This document shows positions 1,569-11,991 of a DNA stretch of 12,375 nt, piece after piece; position 1 is the first letter of the stretch; each line of letters starts with the position of its first letter. Source of the stretch: Geoglobus sp. (GTDB lineage: Archaea; Halobacteriota; Archaeoglobi; Archaeoglobales; Archaeoglobaceae); assembly GCA_015523645.1 (NCBI GenBank), contig WAJY01000008.1, positions 1-12,375 on the forward strand. Reading direction: 5' to 3'. The position numbers and the translations under genes are program-made. Below the pieces are notes generated by a model, which saw only the letters and a program-made list of their open reading frames with translations, was not told the origin of the DNA and searched no databases.

Positions 1569-2327
1569 TCAATCTCTGATCATAGCATGCTTTAGTTCCC
1601 TAGCCTTTTCCTCAATTTCGCTAACTGCATCTTCTCCAAACCTCTCTATTATCTCAACCAAGGCACTACCAACCACAACTCCGTCTGCCCCTGCGCTTAT
1701 AAGCTCTCTAGCATGCTCAGGCTTTGAAACTCCAAAACCTACAGCCAAGGGTTTGCTGCATATTTTTTTGGCTCTATCAAGCAAATCAAAAGCCAAATCC
1801 GAAAGCTTGTCTCTCGCACCGGTTGTACCATAAAGAGAGATCAGATATATGAAACCAGAGCTTGCTTTATCGATCATTTTCAGCCTATAATTGGAAGTAT
1901 TCGGTGCGGCAAGGAATATGGTTTTCATATCATGCTTTTTGCAGGTGTTAAGATATTCTCCAGCCTCCTCCAATGGCAAATCCACAACTATCAAACCGTC
2001 AACACCTGATTCTCTGGCATCTCCAACAAATCTCTCCACTCCCATTCTATACACCGGATTGTAGTATGTCATTATCACAACAGGTGTGTCTGAGCTCTTC
2101 CTGAAGTTCCTGACTGTCTGGAAAACATCTTTAACTCTAGTTTTAGCTTTCAATGCCCTGTAATTTGCTTTCTGAATCACTCTTCCATCCGCCATTGGAT
2201 CGCTGAATGGGATGCCAAGCTCTATCACATCTACATACTTATCCAAGGCAAGCATGAATTCTAGTGTGGCTCTGATGTTAGGGTCTCCGGCTGTTATGAA
2301 CGTTATTAAACCGGGTGGTTTGAACAT
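1569..2327 (-). CDS. trpA: Tryptophan synthase alpha subunit
   Basis: It cleaves indole-3-glycerol phosphate to indole and glyceraldehyde 3-phosphate and passes indole to TrpB in the alpha2-beta2 complex in the cytoplasm. The 252-aa protein has the usual family length and TIM-barrel pattern. The signature [13 protein letters not shown] places the catalytic Glu at residue 36 and Asp at residue 47, equivalent to E49 and D60 of the enterobacterial enzyme. GFGVSKPEH and [12 protein letters not shown] near the end form the phosphate-binding part. The ATG overlaps the end of trpB by 22 bases, indicating translational coupling. It is the last gene of the operon. Confidence 0.97.
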
Positions 2328-3481
2328 TCTAGCCCCTCCATAACAATTCCCAAGTCCTTGTCTCCTTTCCCAGAGAGGTTTACAACGACAATCTCATCCT
2401 TATCCATCTCACCCGAAATCTCAATTGCATAGGCTAATGCATGTGCAGATTCCAAGGCTGGCAGAATGCCTTCTGTCCTGGATAGCTCGAGAAATGCTTT
2501 GAGAGCCTGATCATCTGTTACTGCTGTGTATTCCACCCTACCGCTCTCTTTCAGGTAAGCATGCTCAGGTCCCACTCCAGGATAATCCAAACCCGCTGCA
2601 ATGCTGTGGGTGGTTGCAATCTGCCCATCCTCGTTCTGAAGGAAGTATGAAAGCATCCCATGCAAAACTCCTTTTTCTCCCGCATTTATAGACGCGGAAT
2701 GCTTTCCGCTTTCAATTCCCTTTCCAGCAGCCTCAACACCAACGAGCCTCACCTTATCATTTATAAATGGATAAAAAATTCCAATAGCATTGCTGCCGCC
2801 ACCAACGCAAGCTATTATACAGTCTGGCAAAGATCCCTCGATTTTAAGCATCTGCTCTTTTGTCTCTCTTCCAATGACAGATTGAAAATCCCTTACAATT
2901 GTAGGATAGGGATGGGGTCCAACAACTGAGCCAATCAGATAGTGGGTGTTTTGAAATGTCTCTACCCAATCCCTCAAAGCTTCGTTAATTGCATCTTTTA
3001 AAGTTCTGCTCCCACTCTCCACGGGTATAACCTTGGCTCCAAGCAGATTCATTCTGAAAACATTAGTTTTTTGCCTTTCAACGTCTTCGCTCCCCATGTA
3101 TATCTCAGTCTTCATTCCGAAAAGAGCTCCTGCTATGGCAGTAGCAACTCCGTGCTGTCCTGCTCCTGTCTCAGCTATGAGCCTTTCCTTGCCCATATAT
3201 CTAGCAAGTAAAGCCTGCCCAATTGTGTTGTTTATTTTATGTGCTCCGCCGTGAAGCAGATCTTCTCTCTTCAGATAAATTCTAGCTCCTCCGACTTTTT
3301 CTGTCAGGTTCTTCGCAAAGTACAATGGAGTCGGTCTTCCGGCAAAGTTTTTCAGGTAATAGTCCAGTTCTTGTTTAAATTTCTCGTCATGCCTCACTTC
3401 CTCATAAGCTTTTTCAAGCTCCTCCAATGGAGGAATAAGAACCTCAGGCACATATCTTCCACCAAATTCTCCGAACTTCAT
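2306..3481 (-). CDS. trpB: Tryptophan synthase beta subunit (TrpB1 type)
   Basis: This PLP enzyme condenses indole with L-serine to give tryptophan. At 391 aa it has standard TrpB1 length. The PLP lysine is K82 in GGAHKINN, the catalytic glutamate is E104 in AETGAGQHG, and the phosphate-binding loop is GGGSNAIG. The N-terminus [13 protein letters not shown] is typical of the TrpA-partnered form and not of the longer TrpB2. The start ATG overlaps the trpF stop by four bases (ATGA), and the 3' end overlaps trpA, so all three genes are probably translated in sequence. Confidence 0.98.
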
Positions 3482-4134
3482 TTAATCACCCCTGACTTAG
3501 CCGCCATTACGAACTCCCTAACCTTGTCCTCCTCTTTCCTGCCATTTACCTCAACACCCGAGATTACGTCCACTGCAAAGGGTCTTACAATTTCAATTGC
3601 TCTCTGCACGTTCTTGCTATTGAGACCTCCTGCAAGAATAAGCGGTGTTTCGATCCTTTCTTTAACTCTTCTTGCAATATCCCAGTCGAAAGTCATCCCG
3701 GTTCCGGCTGGTCTGTCAGTTTTTGAATCAAGAAGGATCGCATCTGCAACTCCTGCATATGCTTTAGCCACATCTACCGCATCTCTCCCATAAACCTTTC
3801 CAGTTCTGACATCAATTGGAAGGGCTTTTATCACTTTAATTCCGCTCTCTTCCTTGATCTTTCTTACCTCCTCCTTATTTTCATTTCCATGTAATTGAAC
3901 AGCATTTGGCTTCGAACACTCGATGATTTCTAGCACATCCTCAGCACTACCGGTTGTTACAACTACCGTGTAGACAAAGGGTGGTGTTTTTGATATCAAT
4001 TTCCTAGCCTCCTCTCTAGAAATATTCCAGGGAACATCCGATGGATACTCTGTCACAAATCCTACAGCGTCTGCATACTTAATGCAGACATCAAGCTCCT
4101 TCTCATCCCTTATTCCGCAAATTTTAACCTTCAT
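3478..4134 (-). CDS. trpF: Phosphoribosylanthranilate isomerase
   Basis: It carries out the Amadori rearrangement of N-(5-phosphoribosyl)anthranilate to CdRP, the step after TrpD. The 218-aa TIM-barrel protein opens with [10 protein letters not shown], where C6 is the catalytic cysteine. The second catalytic residue is D136 in AILLDS. VQLHGNE and [12 protein letters not shown] are standard family motifs that line the phosphate site. It lies 11 bases downstream of the small RAM-domain gene and ends in a four-base overlap with trpB. AAAGGAA before the ATG is a modest ribosome binding site. Confidence 0.97.
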
Positions 4135-4145
4135 GAACGATTCCT

Positions 4146-4403
4146 TTAAACCTTGAATGTTTTAAAGCAGAGCAGAGTCATCGTCTTCTCTATCCCATTT
4201 ATTGACTGTATCTTTTCGGTTATCACGTCAGAGAGTGCACCATACTCCCTAACCTTAACCTTCACCACTAGGTCATAAATTCCGGCAACAGAATGAACTT
4301 CCACAACTTCATCCATCTTGGAAAGCTCCCTTGCAACCTCCTTTACCTTACCTTTTTCAATGTTGATTAAAACTATTGCAGTTACAGGTTCCACCATCAT
4401 CAC
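4146..4403 (-). CDS. Stand-alone RAM-domain (Lrp/AsnC ligand-binding) protein
   Basis: The 85-aa product is only the amino-acid-binding RAM domain of Lrp/AsnC regulators, with no DNA-binding helix-turn-helix. It shows the alternating beta-alpha-beta pattern: AIVLINIEKGK, VHSVAGIYDLVVKVKV with the conserved G-x-YD-L-x-V core, and a final MTLLCFK strand. Free RAM proteins form oligomers that bind amino acids and can modulate full-length Lrp proteins or enzymes. Its place between trpD and trpF suggests it senses tryptophan or a precursor, which is inference. The start is uncertain: GTG 4403, ATG 4400 and ATG 4397 are consecutive, and the ribosome site AGGTGAT overlaps them. It begins directly after the trpD stop. 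Confidence 0.85.
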   Translation of the reverse strand: MMMVEPVTAIVLINIEKGKVKEVARELSKMDEVVEVHSVAGIYDLVVKVKVREYGALSDVITEKIQSINGIEKTMTLLCFKTFKV

Positions 4404-5417
4404 CTATACATTTCTTGACTCTGTTATAAATTCTTCCAGCTTCTTCATTGCCAGTCCCTCATCAATTATGTTCTTAGCTGCCTCAACTCCTTCTTCAAGT
4501 GAGGAGACTTTACCGCCAACATACAAAGACCCTGCAGCATTTAGCACAACAGCATCCCTTCTCGCACCCTTCTCTCCAGCAAAAATTCTCTTAATCACCT
4601 CAGCGTTGTATTCAGGCGTTCCACCGGCTATGTCTTCTATTGAGCACCTCTCGATCTTGAAATCTTCTGGAGCTATCTCGTACTTTTCAATCTTCCCCTT
4701 CCTAACCTCAGCCACAGCTGTTTTTCCTATGGGCGAGATTTCGTCCAAGCCATCAAGTCCATGCACGACAAGAACATGATCATAATTCAGGGCTGAAACT
4801 ATCTCGGCAACTATGTTTACTAAATCGGGTCTGTAAACTCCAAGCACATGCCTTCTCGCATCAGCAGGATTTATGAGTGGACCGATTATTGTGTAGAAGA
4901 CCGTTTTTATTCCAAGCTGACTTTCAGGCTCCAAGACCTTTCCCATTACAGGATGGAAAAGAGGAGCGTAGAGAAAGGCTATGCCTACTTTCTCTATCAG
5001 CCTTTCAGCCTGCTTTGGATTGATGTTTATATTCACACCTAGAGCCTCTAGAACGTCTGCAGACCCTGAAAGGGATGAGATTGACCTGCTTCCATGCTTT
5101 GCAACAGCAACCTCGTTTGCTGTAACTATGGCATTTGCTGTGGATATGTTGAAGGTTGTTAGCCCACCTCCAGTACCGCAGGTATCAACAAGCCTGTCGA
5201 CATTTGGCTTTATCATGTTGCATACGTCCTTCATCCCCTTAACTATCCCGGCAATTTCCTCAATTGTTGGTCCTTTCATCGTTAGCCCCATTAGAAAGGC
5301 TCCTATCTGTGCATCACTAAGCTTATCATCTTTTAGTGCTAAAACAAAATCGTAGGTTTCGCCTTCAGTAAGGTTGTAACCATCAACCAGCTTTTTAAGG
5401 ATATTCTTAATCTCCAC
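4404..5417 (-). CDS. trpD: Anthranilate phosphoribosyltransferase
   Basis: It transfers phosphoribosyl from PRPP to anthranilate, the first committed step after anthranilate synthase. The 337-aa protein has the class length and the motifs DTCGTGG, TFNISTA, KHGSRSISSLSGSADVLEALG and GLDGLDEIS, the last carrying the metal-binding Asp/Glu pair. Two details differ from the common form: the glycine-rich loop reads GTGGGLTTFN, where GTGGD plus three residues before TFN is usual, so it lacks the Asp and is one residue shorter, and KHGN is KHGS. The start is GTG at 5417, fixed by a strong AAGGAGGTGG site at 5431-5422. That site lies inside a small upstream ORF. Confidence 0.95.
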   Translation of the reverse strand: MEIKNILKKLVDGYNLTEGETYDFVLALKDDKLSDAQIGAFLMGLTMKGPTIEEIAGIVKGMKDVCNMIKPNVDRLVDTCGTGGGLTTFNISTANAIVTANEVAVAKHGSRSISSLSGSADVLEALGVNININPKQAERLIEKVGIAFLYAPLFHPVMGKVLEPESQLGIKTVFYTIIGPLINPADARRHVLGVYRPDLVNIVAEIVSALNYDHVLVVHGLDGLDEISPIGKTAVAEVRKGKIEKYEIAPEDFKIERCSIEDIAGGTPEYNAEVIKRIFAGEKGARRDAVVLNAAGSLYVGGKVSSLEEGVEAAKNIIDEGLAMKKLEEFITESRNV

Positions 5418-5699: not shown

Positions 5700-6362
5700 T
5701 CACATGAAATACTTCTCTATCTCCTCGATGTTTTTTCCGACCTCCATGTAATGCTCGACTATCTTGCTAACTGCCTCACGTAGATGCTTGTGGGCTGTGC
5801 TCTTCGCAACTCCCATCGCATCTGCAATATCCTTGATTGTCACCTTCTTCTTAGAAGAGAAGTATCCCATTTCGCATGCGGTTTTTATAATTCTCATCTG
5901 ACTTTTTGTCAGCAGGGGTTTTGTCTCCACTATCTTCTTCACCTCCTCAACCCTCCAGTTCCCTATTTTTTTCAATCTATCGTAGGCTTGCTTCAGCATC
6001 GCCAAGCTGGGTGCAAAAACCGTGTATATCTTGTCTCCGTTTTCAACCTTTATCGGTGGTTTTATGAAGCAATAGGAATCTTCAAATGCCTTTATCCCGC
6101 TCACATCCCTGATAACTGCAAGAAAATCGAGGGTTGTGGGTGTCTTCTCAAGTATTTGGAGGAATCTTGTACTCTCGTGATTCTCGATGATATCAAAATA
6201 CTTCTTTGGATTCCCATCCATTCTGGTTATTCTTGCCAAAAAGAGGGCATCTTCCTCATTGAGAATTATATATTCGAGAAGTTCCATGCTCATTCCACCA
6301 TCCTGAGTTGCAACTGCAAGAGAACATGTGTGCTGACTCACCCTAACCTTTGCAACGTACAT
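5700..6362 (-). CDS. HTH_10 (bacterio-opsin activator-type) transcriptional regulator
   Basis: The 220-aa protein ends in an HTH_10 domain at about residues 151-204: LTKSQMRIIKTACEMGYF, then VTIKDIADAMGVAKSTAHKHLREA. This is the pattern of Bat-like archaeal regulators. The N-terminal part (residues 1-150) begins with MYVAKVRVSQHTCSLA, an H-x-C arrangement also seen at the start of other members, followed by an alpha/beta region that may bind a ligand or metal. The ligand is unknown. It is divergent from the DUF2193-DUF2180-AqpM operon, with only 120 bp between starts. That spacer carries three copies of an ACATGTC element, one directly before its own start, so it probably controls both itself and the operon. 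The site AAGGTGG (6379-6373) precedes the ATG. Confidence 0.85.
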   Translation of the reverse strand: MYVAKVRVSQHTCSLAVATQDGGMSMELLEYIILNEEDALFLARITRMDGNPKKYFDIIENHESTRFLQILEKTPTTLDFLAVIRDVSGIKAFEDSYCFIKPPIKVENGDKIYTVFAPSLAMLKQAYDRLKKIGNWRVEEVKKIVETKPLLTKSQMRIIKTACEMGYFSSKKKVTIKDIADAMGVAKSTAHKHLREAVSKIVEHYMEVGKNIEEIEKYFM

Positions 6363-6364
6363 GC

Positions 6365-6437
6365 GGATATGTCCACCTTAAATTATTAATAATTAATTTT
6401 AGACATGTCCACTTTCATTCCCAAACATGTCTGCCAA
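6365..6437. promoter_or_regulatory. Divergent promoter with three ACATGTC-type operator copies
   Basis: Three same-direction elements are visible: GGATATGTCCACCTT (6365-6379), AGACATGTCCACTTT (6401-6415) and AAACATGTCTGCCAA (6423-6437). Copy 2 contains the perfect palindrome GACATGTC (6402-6409). Offsets are 36 and 22 bp. Between copies 1 and 2 lies a 22-bp A/T tract (6379-6400) that can serve as TATA box for the regulator gene and perhaps for the operon. Copy 1 also contains the regulator's ribosome site on the minus strand, so part of its match may reflect that. Assignment to the HTH_10 protein is inferred from position. Confidence 0.55.
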
Positions 6438-6482
6438 AGTGTATTTCTTTAATGGATTGAATTAAAATAGTGGTGATCGGAT

Positions 6483-7982
6483 GTGAAGGAGATTTTTGAG
6501 AAAATGGTTGAAGAAGCCATGGAAGCCCAATGGGCAGATGTAAAAACTGTTAGAGAAAAGAGAGGAAAGGAGTTTGTAATAGATGACGTGAAGGCGTATG
6601 TTGATGCCGCAAACAAGATGAAGGCAGTCGGAAACCAAAGCAAGGCTGTTTTCAGATTGCACGTGGACAGCATAAATGCTCATTTCGACATCCTCAGAAG
6701 CCTGACAAAAACTATCAGACCTGAGGATGATCCATTTGTTGAGCACTACCAAACTCCAGCAATTCTTGAAATACTTTATGATGAGGATGAGAGCTTCAGA
6801 AAGAGCATGGAGGTGTTTATTGAGGCAATTGGGAAGAGTGAAGCCTTGATCGGATTAGAATGTACAAGGAGGTATGGAGGTTTTTACGGACCAACTTGTG
6901 TTGTTGACTTCGCCCTAGTCCCTGGAAGCACGAGCAATGTTGTGAACAGAATTCTGAAAACAATTGACATTCCCGAGCATCACAAACAGGCAATTCTTGC
7001 TGCCAAGTCATGGGGTATGAACACGTCATATGGAATTGGCGAGGTCTTTGCAAAGGAGATAGAGAACGGTGCAACATTGAGTGATGCGGTAAAAAAGGAG
7101 ATTGAAATGCTTCAGCTTATTTACGATCAGCCCACTGAAGGACAGGCAAGGCTAATGGATGAGATAGGGCATACGTCATTTGATGTGAGGGAATACATGA
7201 GTAGATACAAGAAGAGAATGGAGGGAGCGGTAAAAGAGGCGATTGATGATGGAGTGCATTACGGAAACATTGTGACAGTGCCAGCTTATTGTGTTGGAGA
7301 CATAGCCCACCACATAGCCCAGTCAACCTTCAACATGTGCAAGGATGATGTAGTGATGGCTGTTATTGAGGCTGTTACTGAAGTCATGGATTCAACGCTA
7401 AGAAATGCGATAGACAAATTTGAAAATGAGTATCAGCCCCTTTCCCTAGCTACAGGAGCTTCAGCCGTTGCAACAGAATACATTCTGGAGTTGGATGGTT
7501 TTACAGCTCCAATGATTGTCGATCTGCTGACAAAGAGATTCCATAACTACGTTCAGCTTTACCCAACAAGAGGAGGAGCTGCGGAGCTTCACAACCACGA
7601 TTTCATGGACATGATATATAGAGGGTGGAAGTATCTGGACAAGGCAAGGAGAGACAGAAATGGGTCTGAAAAGAAGCTTGTGCCAAAAGTTGGTGGTTTT
7701 GAGGTAAACCTCGATCCAATACATGAAAATGAGGTGCTTATGAATCCGCAGCGCTACACATATCCGGGATGTGCGATAAGTGTTAGGTTCTCAGCCTTGA
7801 TGAGACTTGCGGACTATCCTTGCCTGCTTACAAGCGAACCAGTCACAGCAACGATGGTTACAAATGTGATTGCTTTGCACAAAGAAACGCCAGGGGCACC
7901 AGCTAGGGTGTGCAAGGATTGCGCTACAGCAGCCTTAATTGATGTCAGGCACGATTACTGCCAGTGGAGAGAGGCTGTTTGA
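6483..7982 (+). CDS. DUF2193 family archaeal protein, function unknown
   Basis: The 499-aa protein matches what I recall of DUF2193, a family of methanogens and Archaeoglobales with no assigned reaction. It is soluble, with no signal peptide or membrane segment. Conserved-looking blocks are ECTRRYGGFYGPTCVVDFALVPG (about 126-148), PAYCVGDIAHHIAQSTFNMCKDD (267-289), AELHNHDFMDM (367-377), TYPGCAISVRF (426-436) and a Cys-rich tail with VCKDC (476-480) and DYCQW. Nine cysteines (127, 139, 270, 286, 430, 447, 477, 480, 493) plus several His residues could bind a metal or an Fe-S cluster, which suggests an enzyme. The start is GTG 6483, supported by the site GGTGATC at 6472-6478. It is the first gene of an operon with DUF2180 and AqpM. 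Confidence 0.85.
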   Translation: MKEIFEKMVEEAMEAQWADVKTVREKRGKEFVIDDVKAYVDAANKMKAVGNQSKAVFRLHVDSINAHFDILRSLTKTIRPEDDPFVEHYQTPAILEILYDEDESFRKSMEVFIEAIGKSEALIGLECTRRYGGFYGPTCVVDFALVPGSTSNVVNRILKTIDIPEHHKQAILAAKSWGMNTSYGIGEVFAKEIENGATLSDAVKKEIEMLQLIYDQPTEGQARLMDEIGHTSFDVREYMSRYKKRMEGAVKEAIDDGVHYGNIVTVPAYCVGDIAHHIAQSTFNMCKDDVVMAVIEAVTEVMDSTLRNAIDKFENEYQPLSLATGASAVATEYILELDGFTAPMIVDLLTKRFHNYVQLYPTRGGAAELHNHDFMDMIYRGWKYLDKARRDRNGSEKKLVPKVGGFEVNLDPIHENEVLMNPQRYTYPGCAISVRFSALMRLADYPCLLTSEPVTATMVTNVIALHKETPGAPARVCKDCATAALIDVRHDYCQWREAV

Positions 7983-8013
7983 CCAACTTTTTCTTTTTTA
8001 TAAGGTGAATGTC

Positions 8014-8220
8014 ATGAAATGCTACATCTGCAAAGAGCAAGGAATGGACACCGATGCGGTGGCTATATGCATTGTCTGTGGAATGGGTGTCTGCATGGAT
8101 CATCTGGTTAGGGAGGAAATTGAGTTATGGGAGGGAGGTTACCCGTTTCCTGCTAAAAAGCTGAAGAAAACAATTCCCAGAATTCTCTGCACAATCTGCC
8201 ATGATGCAATGGAGGGGTGA
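8014..8220 (+). CDS. DUF2180 small zinc-binding protein
   Basis: This 68-aa protein starts at ATG 8014 with the site AAGGTGA (8002-8008). The frame is open further upstream, but that part overlaps DUF2193 and has no family features. It contains four metal-ligand pairs: C3/C6, C19/C22, C27/H30 and C59/C62, with H63 next to the last pair. The spacing C-x2-C-x12-C-x2-C-x4-C-x2-H-x28-C-x2-C resembles a two-zinc cross-brace (RING/B-box-like) fold. The family is known only as an archaeal domain of unknown function. It lies 31 bases after DUF2193 and overlaps the ribosome site of the aquaporin gene, so the three are one operon. A protein-protein or redox role is possible. Confidence 0.85.
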   Translation: MKCYICKEQGMDTDAVAICIVCGMGVCMDHLVREEIELWEGGYPFPAKKLKKTIPRILCTICHDAMEG

Positions 8221-8222
8221 GC

Positions 8223-8960
8223 ATGAGTGATTTGATGAAAAGAAGCTTGGCAGAACTTGTTGGAACATTCATTCTTGTTTTTTTTGGTCCAGGAGCTGCT
8301 GCAATAACGCTGATGATTGCTAAAGGAGCAGCAAAGCCAAATGAGTTCAACATAGGTATTGGAGCCCTTGGAGGTCTTGGAGACTGGCTAGGAATAGGTC
8401 TCGCTTTCGCATTTGCAATAACCGCCTCTATCTACGCTCTTGGAAGGATCTCAGGATGCCACATAAATCCAGCAGTTACGATTGCACTTTGGGCAACAAA
8501 GAGATTCCCAACAAGCGAGGTTTTGCCATACATTCTAGCCCAGCTTATCGGCGCAGCCCTAGGAAGCTTTGCATTTGCTGCAGTTGCAGGAATTGATGCG
8601 GTTACAGTTGGGGGGCTGGGAGCGACGGCACCATTTCCGGGAATAAGCTATGCTCAAGCAACGCTTGCTGAATTTATAGGAACATTTCTGCTTATGTTTG
8701 TCATAATGGGTATAGCAGTCGATTCAAAGGCTCCACAGCAATTTGCCGGTTTGATAATCGGTCTGACCGTTGCGGGAATTATCATAACCATAGGTAACAT
8801 CTCTGGCTCCTCGCTTAATCCAGCCAGAACATTTGGTCCTTATCTCGGGGATTCTTTGATTGGGGGAATAAACCTCTGGAACTTCTTCCCAATCTACGTT
8901 GTTGGACCGATAGCCGGAGCGGTATTTGCAGCCTTTCTCTACGATTATCTAACAAAATGA
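8223..8960 (+). CDS. aqpM: Aquaporin AqpM (MIP family channel)
   Basis: The 245-aa membrane protein has six hydrophobic helices and both pore motifs: HINPAV (N82-P83-A84) and SLNPARTF (N199-P200-A201). It is close along its length to the AqpM of Methanothermobacter as I recall it. The selectivity filter residues of AqpM (F62, I187, S196, R202) fall at exactly these positions here. AqpM conducts water and, more slowly, glycerol; other small neutral solutes such as H2S have been proposed. The start is ATG 8223 with a GGAGGGG site at 8211-8217, in preference to the in-frame GTG at 8217 inside that site. Being last in the DUF2193-DUF2180 operon suggests that the unit handles a small neutral compound. 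Confidence 0.95.
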   Translation: MSDLMKRSLAELVGTFILVFFGPGAAAITLMIAKGAAKPNEFNIGIGALGGLGDWLGIGLAFAFAITASIYALGRISGCHINPAVTIALWATKRFPTSEVLPYILAQLIGAALGSFAFAAVAGIDAVTVGGLGATAPFPGISYAQATLAEFIGTFLLMFVIMGIAVDSKAPQQFAGLIIGLTVAGIIITIGNISGSSLNPARTFGPYLGDSLIGGINLWNFFPIYVVGPIAGAVFAAFLYDYLTK

Positions 8961-9692: not shown

Positions 9693-10493
9693 ATGGGAGA
9701 AAGTGGTAGATTGCTGATAGCTATCGATGCGGGAGGCACAATGACTGACGTTTTTATATGCGACGATGCTGGTAAGTTCACAATTGGAAAGGCATTAACA
9801 AACAAAGTGGATGAATCAATAAGCTATCTTGAGGGTGTTAAAGATGCATGCAGTTACTGGGATCTAAAGGATGATGAGGAGGTGCACAAGCTTACACTGG
9901 TTGATATATACACCGGCACTCTGATGCTCAACACTCTTTTGGAGAGAAAAGGAGACAAAGTTGGTTTAATCGTTACAAAAGGTCAGGAAAGCATGTACAT
10001 CCATGAGAGAGGACACACATGGCTTGGATATGGATGGGAGGACATTCTCCATCACAAAACACACAGACATGTGGGAACCGAGATGTTCAAGTTGAACAGA
10101 AAGCTTGTGAAGGGTGTTGCAGAGAGAATAGCGAGTGGTTCCTATTTCTACGTTACCATGCCAGGCTCCGTTGAGGTGCCATTGAATGAGGATGAGGTCA
10201 GAAAGGCTGTCAATGAGCTATTAGACGAGGGTGTAAAGGCGATCGGGATAGTGTTCATGTTCTCTTACATTGTTAGAGTAGCAAAGATGGATGACGGAAC
10301 AAATATTATTGCCTGGATAGATGGAAACCTTGAAAGTCTCAAGCCAGATATTAAGGTAAGGTTGGTGATACATCCAGATAGAGATCCAATTTACAGCCTT
10401 CAAGTGGTGAATGAGGATGAGTTATATATTCAGAATTCTCAAAGAGCTTCCAGAGCACAGACCCTTTTACCGATATCTGAACATGAGGGTTGA
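9693..10493 (+). CDS. Chimeric gene: acetone carboxylase beta/hydantoinase A N-terminus fused to a DUF35-like OB-fold
   Basis: Residues 1 to about 192 match the N-terminal domain of the hydantoinase A/acetone carboxylase beta family: LIAIDAGGTMTDVFI, IGKALT, YTGTLMLNTLLERKG, GLIVTKGQESM, and a final ELLDEGVKAIGIVFMFSY. Family members run to about 700 residues, but homology stops at about 10268. Residues 193-238 (IVRVAKMDDGTNIIAWI, IKVRLVI, IYSLQVV) instead resemble the C-terminal OB-fold of DUF35 acyl-CoA-associated proteins. The frame is open across the join, suggesting an in-frame deletion that removed most of the carboxylase and everything up to the DUF35 gene. The last 83 bases overlap the next gene, which is unusual. 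The product probably lacks carboxylase activity. The N-terminal call is firm; the DUF35 call is moderate. Confidence 0.65.
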   Translation: MGESGRLLIAIDAGGTMTDVFICDDAGKFTIGKALTNKVDESISYLEGVKDACSYWDLKDDEEVHKLTLVDIYTGTLMLNTLLERKGDKVGLIVTKGQESMYIHERGHTWLGYGWEDILHHKTHRHVGTEMFKLNRKLVKGVAERIASGSYFYVTMPGSVEVPLNEDEVRKAVNELLDEGVKAIGIVFMFSYIVRVAKMDDGTNIIAWIDGNLESLKPDIKVRLVIHPDRDPIYSLQVVNEDELYIQNSQRASRAQTLLPISEHEG

Positions 10494-10848
10494 AGACATA
10501 GGAGAGGGTTGGTGCAAACTTTTCCTCCCATTTGATGAAAAGCTAACAATTGGCAATAATGTTATACACGGTGGAGTCGTAGCATCTCTAATGGATGTTG
10601 TAGGCAGCATGGCATCATCAACCCTGACAAAGAAAAGGGCTCCTACAGTGAGCATAAAGATTGATTTTTTGAGAAAAGCTTACACAGATCTAATAGCATT
10701 TGGTGAGGTTGTGAAAAGGGGGATGAGTGTGGTTTTCACAAAAATAGAGACGCATGATTCAAAAGGAAATTTAATTGCAACAGGATCAGGGATTTATGGT
10801 GTTAGTGATGAAGCTTTCAGCTTTGGAGGTTCGGATTATGAAATCTGA
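10411..10848 (+). CDS. PaaI-type hotdog-fold acyl-CoA thioesterase
   Basis: The 145-aa protein has the hotdog-fold pattern of the PaaI family: HRPFYRYLNMRVEDIGEGWCKLFLPF, then VIHGGVVASLMDVVGSMAS with the HGG and downstream Asp typical of the active site, then VSIKIDFLRKA. It probably hydrolyses an aromatic or other acyl-CoA. The ATG at 10417 has a better-placed site (GGTGA at 10406-10410) than the ATG at 10411, so the true start may be two codons later. It overlaps the chimeric gene upstream by 83 bases in another frame, and its family homology begins within the overlap. A link to acyl-CoA metabolism fits the DUF35-like remnant upstream. Confidence 0.88.
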   Translation: MRMSYIFRILKELPEHRPFYRYLNMRVEDIGEGWCKLFLPFDEKLTIGNNVIHGGVVASLMDVVGSMASSTLTKKRAPTVSIKIDFLRKAYTDLIAFGEVVKRGMSVVFTKIETHDSKGNLIATGSGIYGVSDEAFSFGGSDYEI

Positions 10849-10907
10849 AAGTTCAAAATTCAGATTCCAGCTTATGTATAAGTGCATATGTGAGGTGGGA
10901 AAGTATT

Positions 10908-11687
10908 ATGAGAATCTTGTCAATAACAGCAACAAAAAGAAAGAGCGGAAATAGCATACAGGCAATAGAATACATATCAAAAAAACTTTCTGCAGAAAAT
11001 GAGATTTTAAATTTGGCTGAATTCGATATAGAGCCTTGCAAGGCATGTTATGCATGTTTGTACGGTGTGGAATGTAAAATAGAGGATGAGGTTTACGCAA
11101 TTTATGAAAAACTGAGGAATGTTGATGCGTTGCTCATCGTTTCTCCAACATACTGGCTTGATGCAACAGCCAGAATAAAAGCCTTATTGGACAGGAGTTT
11201 CATGGCAATCCCATATCTGGATGATTTCTCAAGAGTTAGATCTGCAATCATAACCCTACACGGATTCAACGAAATGAGAGGATGGGCTTCATCAACTCAC
11301 AACGTGCTTGCAAGAGTTTTGGGAACAGACCTTCTTGTCAGCGTGGAGATTCACGCAGCTCTACCTGGAGAGATCTTTACAAAAGAGGAGAACATGAAAA
11401 AACTTGACATGGTTGTTGATGCACTGAAGAACAACAAAAAGATTGTTGGCGAGGGTCAGTGTCCTGTTTGTTTAGCCTCATCATTCAGGGTTGAAGATGG
11501 AAAAATAAGATGTCTGCTGTGCAACTCTATTCTCGATTGCAACATGAATGTTGTCAGGAGTGGAGAGATGTTTTCAAGTCATGAATGGTTGAAAAATCAC
11601 TATGAAGAGCTTAGGGAGCTTAAGGAAGAGTTCAGGATTAAGATGGATGAGCTGAAAAGGGCTAAAGCAAAGTATCTTGGAGAGTGA
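10908..11687 (+). CDS. Iron-sulfur flavoprotein with C-terminal zinc ribbon
   Basis: From ATG 10908, with the site GAGGTGGG at 10892-10899, the product is 259 aa. Residues 1-180 form a flavodoxin-like NADPH-dependent FMN reductase fold: MRILSITATKRKSGNS at the flavin phosphate loop and SPTYWLDATARIKALLDR. The compact motif C44-x2-C47-x2-C50-x5-C56 is the [4Fe-4S] signature of archaeal iron-sulfur flavoproteins, which act in electron transfer or oxygen/peroxide defence. A zinc ribbon follows (C185-x2-C188 and C202-x2-C205, plus C211), then a charged helical tail (230-257) that may form a coiled coil. In-frame GTG 10890 is unlikely as the start because it lies before the ribosome site. A TATA-like TTATGTATAA (10872-10881) may give it its own promoter. 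Confidence 0.87.
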   Translation: MRILSITATKRKSGNSIQAIEYISKKLSAENEILNLAEFDIEPCKACYACLYGVECKIEDEVYAIYEKLRNVDALLIVSPTYWLDATARIKALLDRSFMAIPYLDDFSRVRSAIITLHGFNEMRGWASSTHNVLARVLGTDLLVSVEIHAALPGEIFTKEENMKKLDMVVDALKNNKKIVGEGQCPVCLASSFRVEDGKIRCLLCNSILDCNMNVVRSGEMFSSHEWLKNHYEELRELKEEFRIKMDELKRAKAKYLGE

Positions 11688-11700
11688 TGAGTTGAGAGAT

Positions 11701-11991
11701 ATGATCCAGATCGAAATGATAGAGATTGGAAAATTAAAAGCATTAGGAATAAAAATCGAGCTGGCAAATGCCCCAATTCTTATAATTAAAGGAGAGAAGG
11801 GATTCCTTGCATGCGGATACTTCAGAGTGGGCGTAGCCAATTATCTCGGCGATGCAATGGCTATTGTAACAGGTGTTGAAAGTTTTCAGGAAATGCTCAA
11901 TTCTAAGGTTTCAATGGTTTCAGAAAAAGCTAAGGAACTTGGAATAGAGGTTGGAGATACAGGTAGAGAGGCTTTGATGAAGCTATTTTAA
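11701..11991 (+). CDS. DUF1805 (YunC-like) family protein
   Basis: The 96-aa protein matches the DUF1805 pattern: a beta-rich first part, then ILIIKGEKGFLACGYF, VANYLGDAMAIVTGV, and ELGIEVGDTGREALMKL at the end. No biochemical role is assigned to the family. The frame is open from TTG 11677, inside the flavoprotein gene. ATG 11701 is the simplest start, while TTG 11692 would sit at better distance from GGAG at 11679-11682. It follows the flavoprotein gene closely and is probably cotranscribed with it. Confidence 0.8.
   Translation: MIQIEMIEIGKLKALGIKIELANAPILIIKGEKGFLACGYFRVGVANYLGDAMAIVTGVESFQEMLNSKVSMVSEKAKELGIEVGDTGREALMKLF

Follow-up and report, generated by a model that had tools for sequence, protein, structure and literature searches.

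What does the archaeal channel AqpM do in the company of a DUF2193 and a DUF2180 protein? The question is raised by a 12,375 nt stretch of DNA from Geoglobus sp. (the window), in which genes for the three proteins follow each other and face a divergent gene for an HTH_10 transcriptional regulator (Table 1). AqpM has solved structures and no agreed physiological solute in the AqpM literature covered here, and DUF2193 is a highly conserved methanogen protein with no assigned function, which we find to be a conserved partner of AqpM. Tying the channel to DUF2193, and the DUF2193 family to MtrH, gives a testable route to the solute and points to a possible new one-carbon (C1) enzyme in organisms making biological methane.

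Table 1. Features of the DUF2193-DUF2180-aqpM locus in the window.
Feature	Position	Strand	Basis or remark
HTH_10 transcriptional regulator, divergent	5700..6362	-	Pfam; N-terminal C13, H62, C98 nearly invariant
Operator-like palindrome 1, contains GGATATGTCCAC, directly at regulator gene start	6363..6376	.	Direct repeat and site counts
Operator-like palindrome 2, contains AGACATGTCCAC	6399..6412	.	Direct repeat and site counts
Third partial element AAACATGTCTGCC	6422..6434	.	By eye; several related loci have similar letters
DUF2193 protein, 499 aa, probable metalloenzyme	6483..7982	+	Pfam, conservation
DUF2180 protein, 68 aa, CxxC-x12-CxxC-x4-CxxH-x28-CxxC	8014..8220	+	Pfam, alignment
AqpM, MIP channel, filter F-I-S-R	8217..8960	+	Likely start ATG 8223

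The window is one contig (C8) of a 1.71 Mb genome in 294 contigs (~90% complete), and its closest named relatives are Geoglobus and Archaeoglobus metagenome-assembled genomes, with DUF2193 identities of up to 95%. Families in the window were assigned by a Pfam scan with gathering cut-offs. The DUF2193 match (PF09959) spans residues 2–499 and model positions 1–498 with an E-value of 2.9e-277 and 920 bits against a cut-off of 25, and the DUF2180 match (PF09947) reaches 1.4e-39 and 134 bits (cut-off 22.2). AqpM scores above cut-off for both MIP (PF00230, E 1.6e-46) and TIGR00861, and the divergent gene carries a C-terminal HTH_10 domain (PF04967, E 1.8e-19, 69.7 bits, cut-off 23.1). A sequence-only reading of the window had described three closely spaced plus-strand genes with an overlapping ribosome site, and these borders are confirmed. 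The DUF2193 stop codon (7980–7982) and the DUF2180 ATG (8014) leave a gap of 31 bases. The DUF2180 stop lies at 8218–8220 and AqpM starts at GTG 8217 or, more likely, at ATG 8223, with the putative ribosome site GGAGGGG (8211–8217) inside the DUF2180 3′ end. The divergent starts at 6362 (HTH_10) and 6483 (DUF2193) are 120 bp apart, and the repeated operator-like sites that had been noted between them are indeed present.

Matches to DUF2193, DUF2180 and MIP were found in 123, 165 and 153, respectively, of 392 genomes sampled in the phylum. Exclusion of 19 paralogue and 8 fragment entries from 140 DUF2193 entries left 113 full-length canonical places. Within a few kb of these, MIP is present at at least 107, DUF2180 at at least 88, and both at at least 85 places (lower bounds, taken from part of the neighbour entries); 3 places have neither. 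Of the 80 named archaeal loci, which are the best 80 of 258 found, 72 carry DUF2193, DUF2180 and AqpM on one strand and in one order; this number includes L070, where DUF2193 is split in two, and L097, where AqpM is. Two of the remaining eight reach a contig end (L098, L108), two lack DUF2180 (L115, L125), one lacks AqpM (L120), and three lack both partners (L102, L107, L127). The record titles of the named loci cover Archaeoglobi, Methanothrix, Methanomicrobiales, other Methanosarcinales and Methanobacteriaceae, the last represented by L080, L083, L115 and perhaps L125 only. The recurrence that the sequence-only reading expected is thus seen across methanogens and Archaeoglobi, with the reservation that DUF2180 is not a constant member: 22 canonical places have MIP and no listed DUF2180 nearby, three of them (G154, G182, G212) in genomes with a weak DUF2180 match. 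In the G154 locus (L034; G154:C1:545001–565000) only a 75-base DUF2180 match lies between DUF2193 and AqpM, and the other genes and the regulator are kept. At another locus (L148; G330:C1:317001–337000) DUF2193 and MIP are both fragmented, as if the unit decays jointly.

A neighbourhood kept by chance or inheritance, with no common function, could be suspected, since sampling was largely of related orders with vertical inheritance and the correlation between the three proteins in pairwise identity is only moderate (r 0.45–0.71). We consider this very improbable. Apart from the triad, its antisense open reading frames and the regulator, every other neighbour cluster is limited to 10 of the 80 named loci or fewer, the median gaps between domain edges are short (28 and 10.5 bases), and G330 has both DUF2193 and MIP in pieces. 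The comparison of genomes leaves us nearly certain that DUF2193-DUF2180-aqpM is a real, ancient conserved gene unit of methanogens and Archaeoglobi. Searches of open-licence PMC literature, which covered most AqpM papers at the level of listings, returned no earlier description of this unit and no match for DUF2180. The parts of PMC8359953, PMC3087415 and PMC5852551 that were available, in which locus tags or aquaporin were looked for, contained nothing of use.

The divergent HTH_10 gene, put forward earlier as a partner of the unit, holds this place in Archaeoglobaceae and is not a general partner. It adjoins the unit in 22 of 22 Archaeoglobaceae loci (16 divergent, 6 upstream and co-directional), which are drawn from 23 such canonical places with G024 omitted. 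Of the 80 named loci 13 contain it, each with an Archaeoglobi title; several of the other 67 end early, and several of the 22 share contigs with named loci, so that the two sets are not independent. The regulator is also found beside the unit in L051 (family f5). Across 25 distinct regulator sequences C98 is invariant and C13 and H62 are each conserved in 23, and the two that deviate at C13/H62 are, by reading, genes near MtrH in L033 and L050.

The repeats GGATATGTCCAC (6365–6376) and AGACATGTCCAC (6401–6412) form a 14-nt direct repeat at 86%, each within a near-palindrome. The palindrome GGACATGTCC, with up to 3 mismatches, occurs at least once upstream of DUF2193 in 23 of 23 loci (the 22 above plus L051) and at least twice in 17. 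The 125 bp upstream of the window DUF2193 contain 4 strand-counted matches at this threshold, compared with 0.023 on average in 300 mononucleotide shuffles of the window's own stretch. As the palindrome seed was read from these same regions, conservation across the 23 loci is better evidence than the shuffle count. With up to 1 mismatch, the window genome yields 13 strand-counted matches against 3 for the reversed control pattern. The window site accounts for three of these; the two remaining palindromic places, on C73 and C160, both fall inside long open reading frames, and a match on C234 lies in an AOR frame. The conserved sites suggest that the local HTH_10 regulator very probably binds the palindromes between the divergent promoters and so also controls itself; self-control is likely because the first site abuts the regulator start codon.

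The window channel matches the solved AqpM structures 2evu and 3ne2 almost end to end (E 5.9e-111 and 2e-111). When it is aligned to 2evu numbering its selectivity filter reads F-I-S-R, as in AqpM of Methanothermobacter marburgensis (2evu/2f2b) and in 3ne2, which places it in the AqpM subfamily. This narrow, hydrophobic filter, F-I-[SA]-R, is found in 90 of 94 distinct sequences, a few of them not beside DUF2193 (47 FISR and 43 FIAR; the other 4 are FIGR, FITR or FVSR). Over 245 compared residues the sequence of 3ne2, which we take to be from Archaeoglobus fulgidus, does not differ from the AqpM encoded in the G117 unit, and therefore a crystallised channel stems from this kind of unit.

AqpM has been described as conducting water weakly, with poor glycerol flux (PMC6912568, PMC3287591; available parts). 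H2S, one of the solutes proposed in the sequence-only reading, is spoken against by a published test quoted in the available part of PMC3287591, in which AqpM was not an H2S transporter. The same parts of these accounts make no mention of a unit with DUF2193 and DUF2180 (in PMC3287591 the word 'operon' occurs 0 times). A plain water channel, with DUF2193 and DUF2180 regulating AqpM or envelope homeostasis, would agree with the weak water conduction (PMC6912568, available part) and with the osmotic role proposed for a Methanohalophilus aquaporin in the available part of PMC6491703. We find this improbable, as DUF2193 has a median pairwise identity of 71% over 83 triads and an enzyme-like set of invariant residues, and its paralogues go with C1 genes and have a MIP gene at one locus only (see below). 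The operon context of AqpM suggests a particular part for the channel in metabolism, perhaps in the handling of C1 compounds.

In operons of the glpF-glpK type a facilitator is combined with an enzyme that traps the solute. The window unit is comparable by analogy in working only, having a MIP channel, a likely enzyme and a local regulator. It differs in its enzyme-like member, as Pfam and similar family scans found no known kinase or other family match for DUF2193 outside its own family. At E ≤ 10, Pfam gave scattered weak matches on 89 DUF2193 members (e.g., one to URO-D at 0.022), and a PDB sequence search gave nothing usable (best E 0.61). A glycyl-radical enzyme was also considered and dropped, since no C-terminal glycyl motif was seen by eye (no profile was used).

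Among 8000 scored candidates, 957 relatives of DUF2193 were found at E ≤ 0.001. From listings of 120 and 64 proteins we hand-picked the 89 members of an alignment (A2), consisting of 34 canonical, 19 intermediate and 36 paralogue sequences. In each of these three groups H67, D102, D142, E206, H259, D273, H276, H277, D288, E368, H370, D373, D444, C447, E452 and K478 are conserved at 94% or more, and C480 and C493 are kept in at least 95%. The C-terminus of the window protein is Cys-rich, with C477, C480, D487, H490 and C493 forming a CX2CX6DX2(H/C)X2C motif. The expectation of a metal site in DUF2193 is supported by these invariant His, Asp and Glu residues together with the C-terminal motif, and DUF2193 is probably a metalloenzyme.

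The C-terminal motif also bears on iron and sulphur. A site with a His/Cys swap, as seen at position 490 between canonical and paralogue members, would accommodate zinc no less well than an iron-sulphur cluster. Mvol_0354 of Methanococcus voltae, which shares the family and the C-terminal motif with the window protein, was more abundant on FeS2, and the motif was proposed as a set of Fe-S ligands; the available part of that account (PMC9431491) gives only this proteomic response and does not discuss gene context. On an iron/sulphur-supply reading, as suggested for M. voltae, the unit would take up or process Fe-S species. The swap counts against this, Fe-S species are not the kind of cargo expected for an aquaporin, and H2S transport by AqpM is denied (PMC3287591, available part), and we regard the idea as unlikely.

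The sampled genomes contain a divergent DUF2193 paralogue at 19 places (34% identical to the window protein in one pairwise comparison), and its neighbours point to C1 metabolism. At 16 of them the 4 kb upstream of the paralogue include a gene of the MtrH family in the same orientation; the two genes are immediate neighbours in 12 and their predicted frames overlap in 10. The three places without MtrH are L032 and L038, which end at a contig border, and L049, which has none. Neighbour families were confirmed on representatives, MtrC by Pfam and the other mtr genes by reading. An AOR gene lies within 60 bases upstream of the paralogue in 5 places; 4 places have Mer nearby, 3 an mtr cluster and 1 an MtaA-like gene, and 4 of the 16 MtrH-linked places carry both AOR and Mer genes. 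The order is mtr cluster, mtrH, mer, AOR, DUF2193 in L041, L044 and L048, and mtrH, mtaA-like, AOR, DUF2193, mer in L042. In L033 and L050 a gene that clusters by sequence with the HTH_10 regulators lies near the MtrH-DUF2193 pair. The window genome itself has a paralogue copy directly 3′ of an AOR-like gene (by sequence cluster) on a short contig (L032; G000:C234:133–1614). In L034 an MtrH-DUF2193 pair lies ~3–4 kb from the canonical unit, a single case that may be chance; the MIP gene of this locus belongs to the canonical unit, and none was found in the other paralogue loci. Besides MtrA-like genes in the mtr clusters, no corrinoid-protein gene was noticed beside the paralogue by reading, no search having been aimed at them. 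The association of the DUF2193 paralogue with MtrH is new here, and it favours a C1 role in methyl and tetrahydromethanopterin (H4MPT) metabolism for the family, as judged from gene context.

DUF2180 had been proposed as a zinc protein, and its eight Cys/His ligand positions, kept in 99–102 of 102 distinct sequences, are suited to zinc. FYVE/PHD-like cross-brace fingers bind two zinc ions through four ligand pairs in cross-brace order. DUF2180 shows the ligand spacing of a putative finger of this kind, but a PDB sequence search gave no significant match (best E 0.35; AF-10 1.3). Tandem DUF2180 pairs are found away from DUF2193 in family f5 and some other genomes. Compared by hand, 14 of 20 genomes have mer at a distance of up to about 6 kb from these tandem genes; for mtd, 3 of 7 genomes have it no more than about 2.5 kb away. 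Both counts speak for a C1 role.

Our best guess, held tentatively, is that the unit has a C1 role, with methanol or formaldehyde/methanediol as solute and exchange with H4MPT, because its enzyme-like member has a paralogue tied to MtrH. AqpM would equilibrate the small neutral compound across the membrane. DUF2193 would act as a metal-dependent enzyme, with one candidate site at H259, D273, H276, H277, D288, E368, H370 and D373 and a second at the Cys-rich C-terminal 477/480/490/493, that converts the compound and exchanges the C1 unit with the H4MPT pool. DUF2180 may be a two-zinc cross-brace-like accessory (an adaptor or redox-sensitive subunit), and the regulator may respond via its conserved Cys/His residues. 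In its full form the proposal makes DUF2193 a new family of metal-dependent C1 enzymes, paired with MtrH-type methyltransferases (paralogue) or AqpM (canonical) and moving C1 units between permeating methanol or formaldehyde and the H4MPT pool, with AqpM as a channel dedicated to C1 compounds and the HTH_10 protein as their sensor; this we put forward as a doubtful extension.

Several observations weigh against a C1 role. The main doubt is whether the gene context of the paralogue can be extended to the canonical form. The paralogue is distant, and its substrate may differ. In a scan of 109 proteins, out of 215 non-redundant ones selected around the canonical unit, no C1-pathway or stress family is frequent (first 25 of 166 families); one AOR and one HcyBio were seen. 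The second candidate site is less uniform in the 19 intermediate proteins, where C477, present in all canonical and paralogue members, is kept in 79% and position 490, His in canonical and Cys in paralogue members, varies (C 8, K 4, H 3). DUF2193 relatives are named from Halanaerobium and Caldiserica, bacteria in which the H4MPT pathway is not expected. Profile comparison by hhalign found no relation of DUF2193 to MtaB, MttB, MtrH, Mer or AOR. The probabilities for MtaB and MttB were 0.1% and 0.3%, a weak negative because the same method gave only 0.4% for the control, MtaB against MttB. Substrate:corrinoid methyltransferases such as MtaB and MttB are TIM barrels with an active-site zinc or pyrrolysine. 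Corrinoid systems linked to MtrH/MtgA resemble the paralogue loci in that DUF2193 paralogues are likewise paired with MtrH-family genes; they differ in that DUF2193 has no detectable MtaB/MttB similarity in this weak test and the canonical unit has no MtrH.

The surroundings of tandem DUF2180 point in another direction. Of 16 such loci (L132–L138, L151, L195–L202), hand-picked and some of them chosen because mer lies elsewhere, 10 have a co-directional CMD (AhpD-like) gene no further than 2 kb away, and 3 have mtd nearby. The CMD-linked loci include L134 and also L195–L198, the four of the 16 with mer elsewhere in the genome or on another contig. The CMD count, too, speaks against a C1 role, and the AhpD-like neighbours favour a redox role, to go by gene context. 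L132 adds desulfoferrodoxin and resembles in gene content a predicted oxidative-stress operon of M. acetivorans (MA4664/MA3734-3743; PMC3729527, available part), and L136 and L151 have ferritin-like or rubrerythrin genes. Redox or oxidant defence ranks next after the C1 role. AqpM would pass hydrogen peroxide or a small oxidant, the DUF2193 metal site would remove it, DUF2180 would be a thiol/zinc redox partner, and the regulator would contain a cysteine redox switch, for which the conservation of C13 and C98 (23 and 25 of 25) is suitable. We still consider it rather unlikely for the unit, as AhpD, SOR and rubrerythrin are absent from the first 25 families of the 109 canonical-unit neighbours and the DUF2193 paralogue accompanies MtrH. 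The canonical-unit neighbours themselves do not decide between C1 and stress roles.

Three further observations concern other genes of the window. On the minus strand, 1569–5417 holds a run resembling tryptophan biosynthesis genes that encloses a small Lrp-like gene (4146–4403; names by reading translations). At 9693–10493 lies a stand-alone hydantoinase A N-terminal domain of 266 aa, and a hot-dog thioesterase gene (10411–10848) overlaps its end. The gene at 10890–11991, which overlaps a DUF1805 gene, encodes a protein resembling FMN reductase; by reading, its C-terminus has two CxxC pairs.

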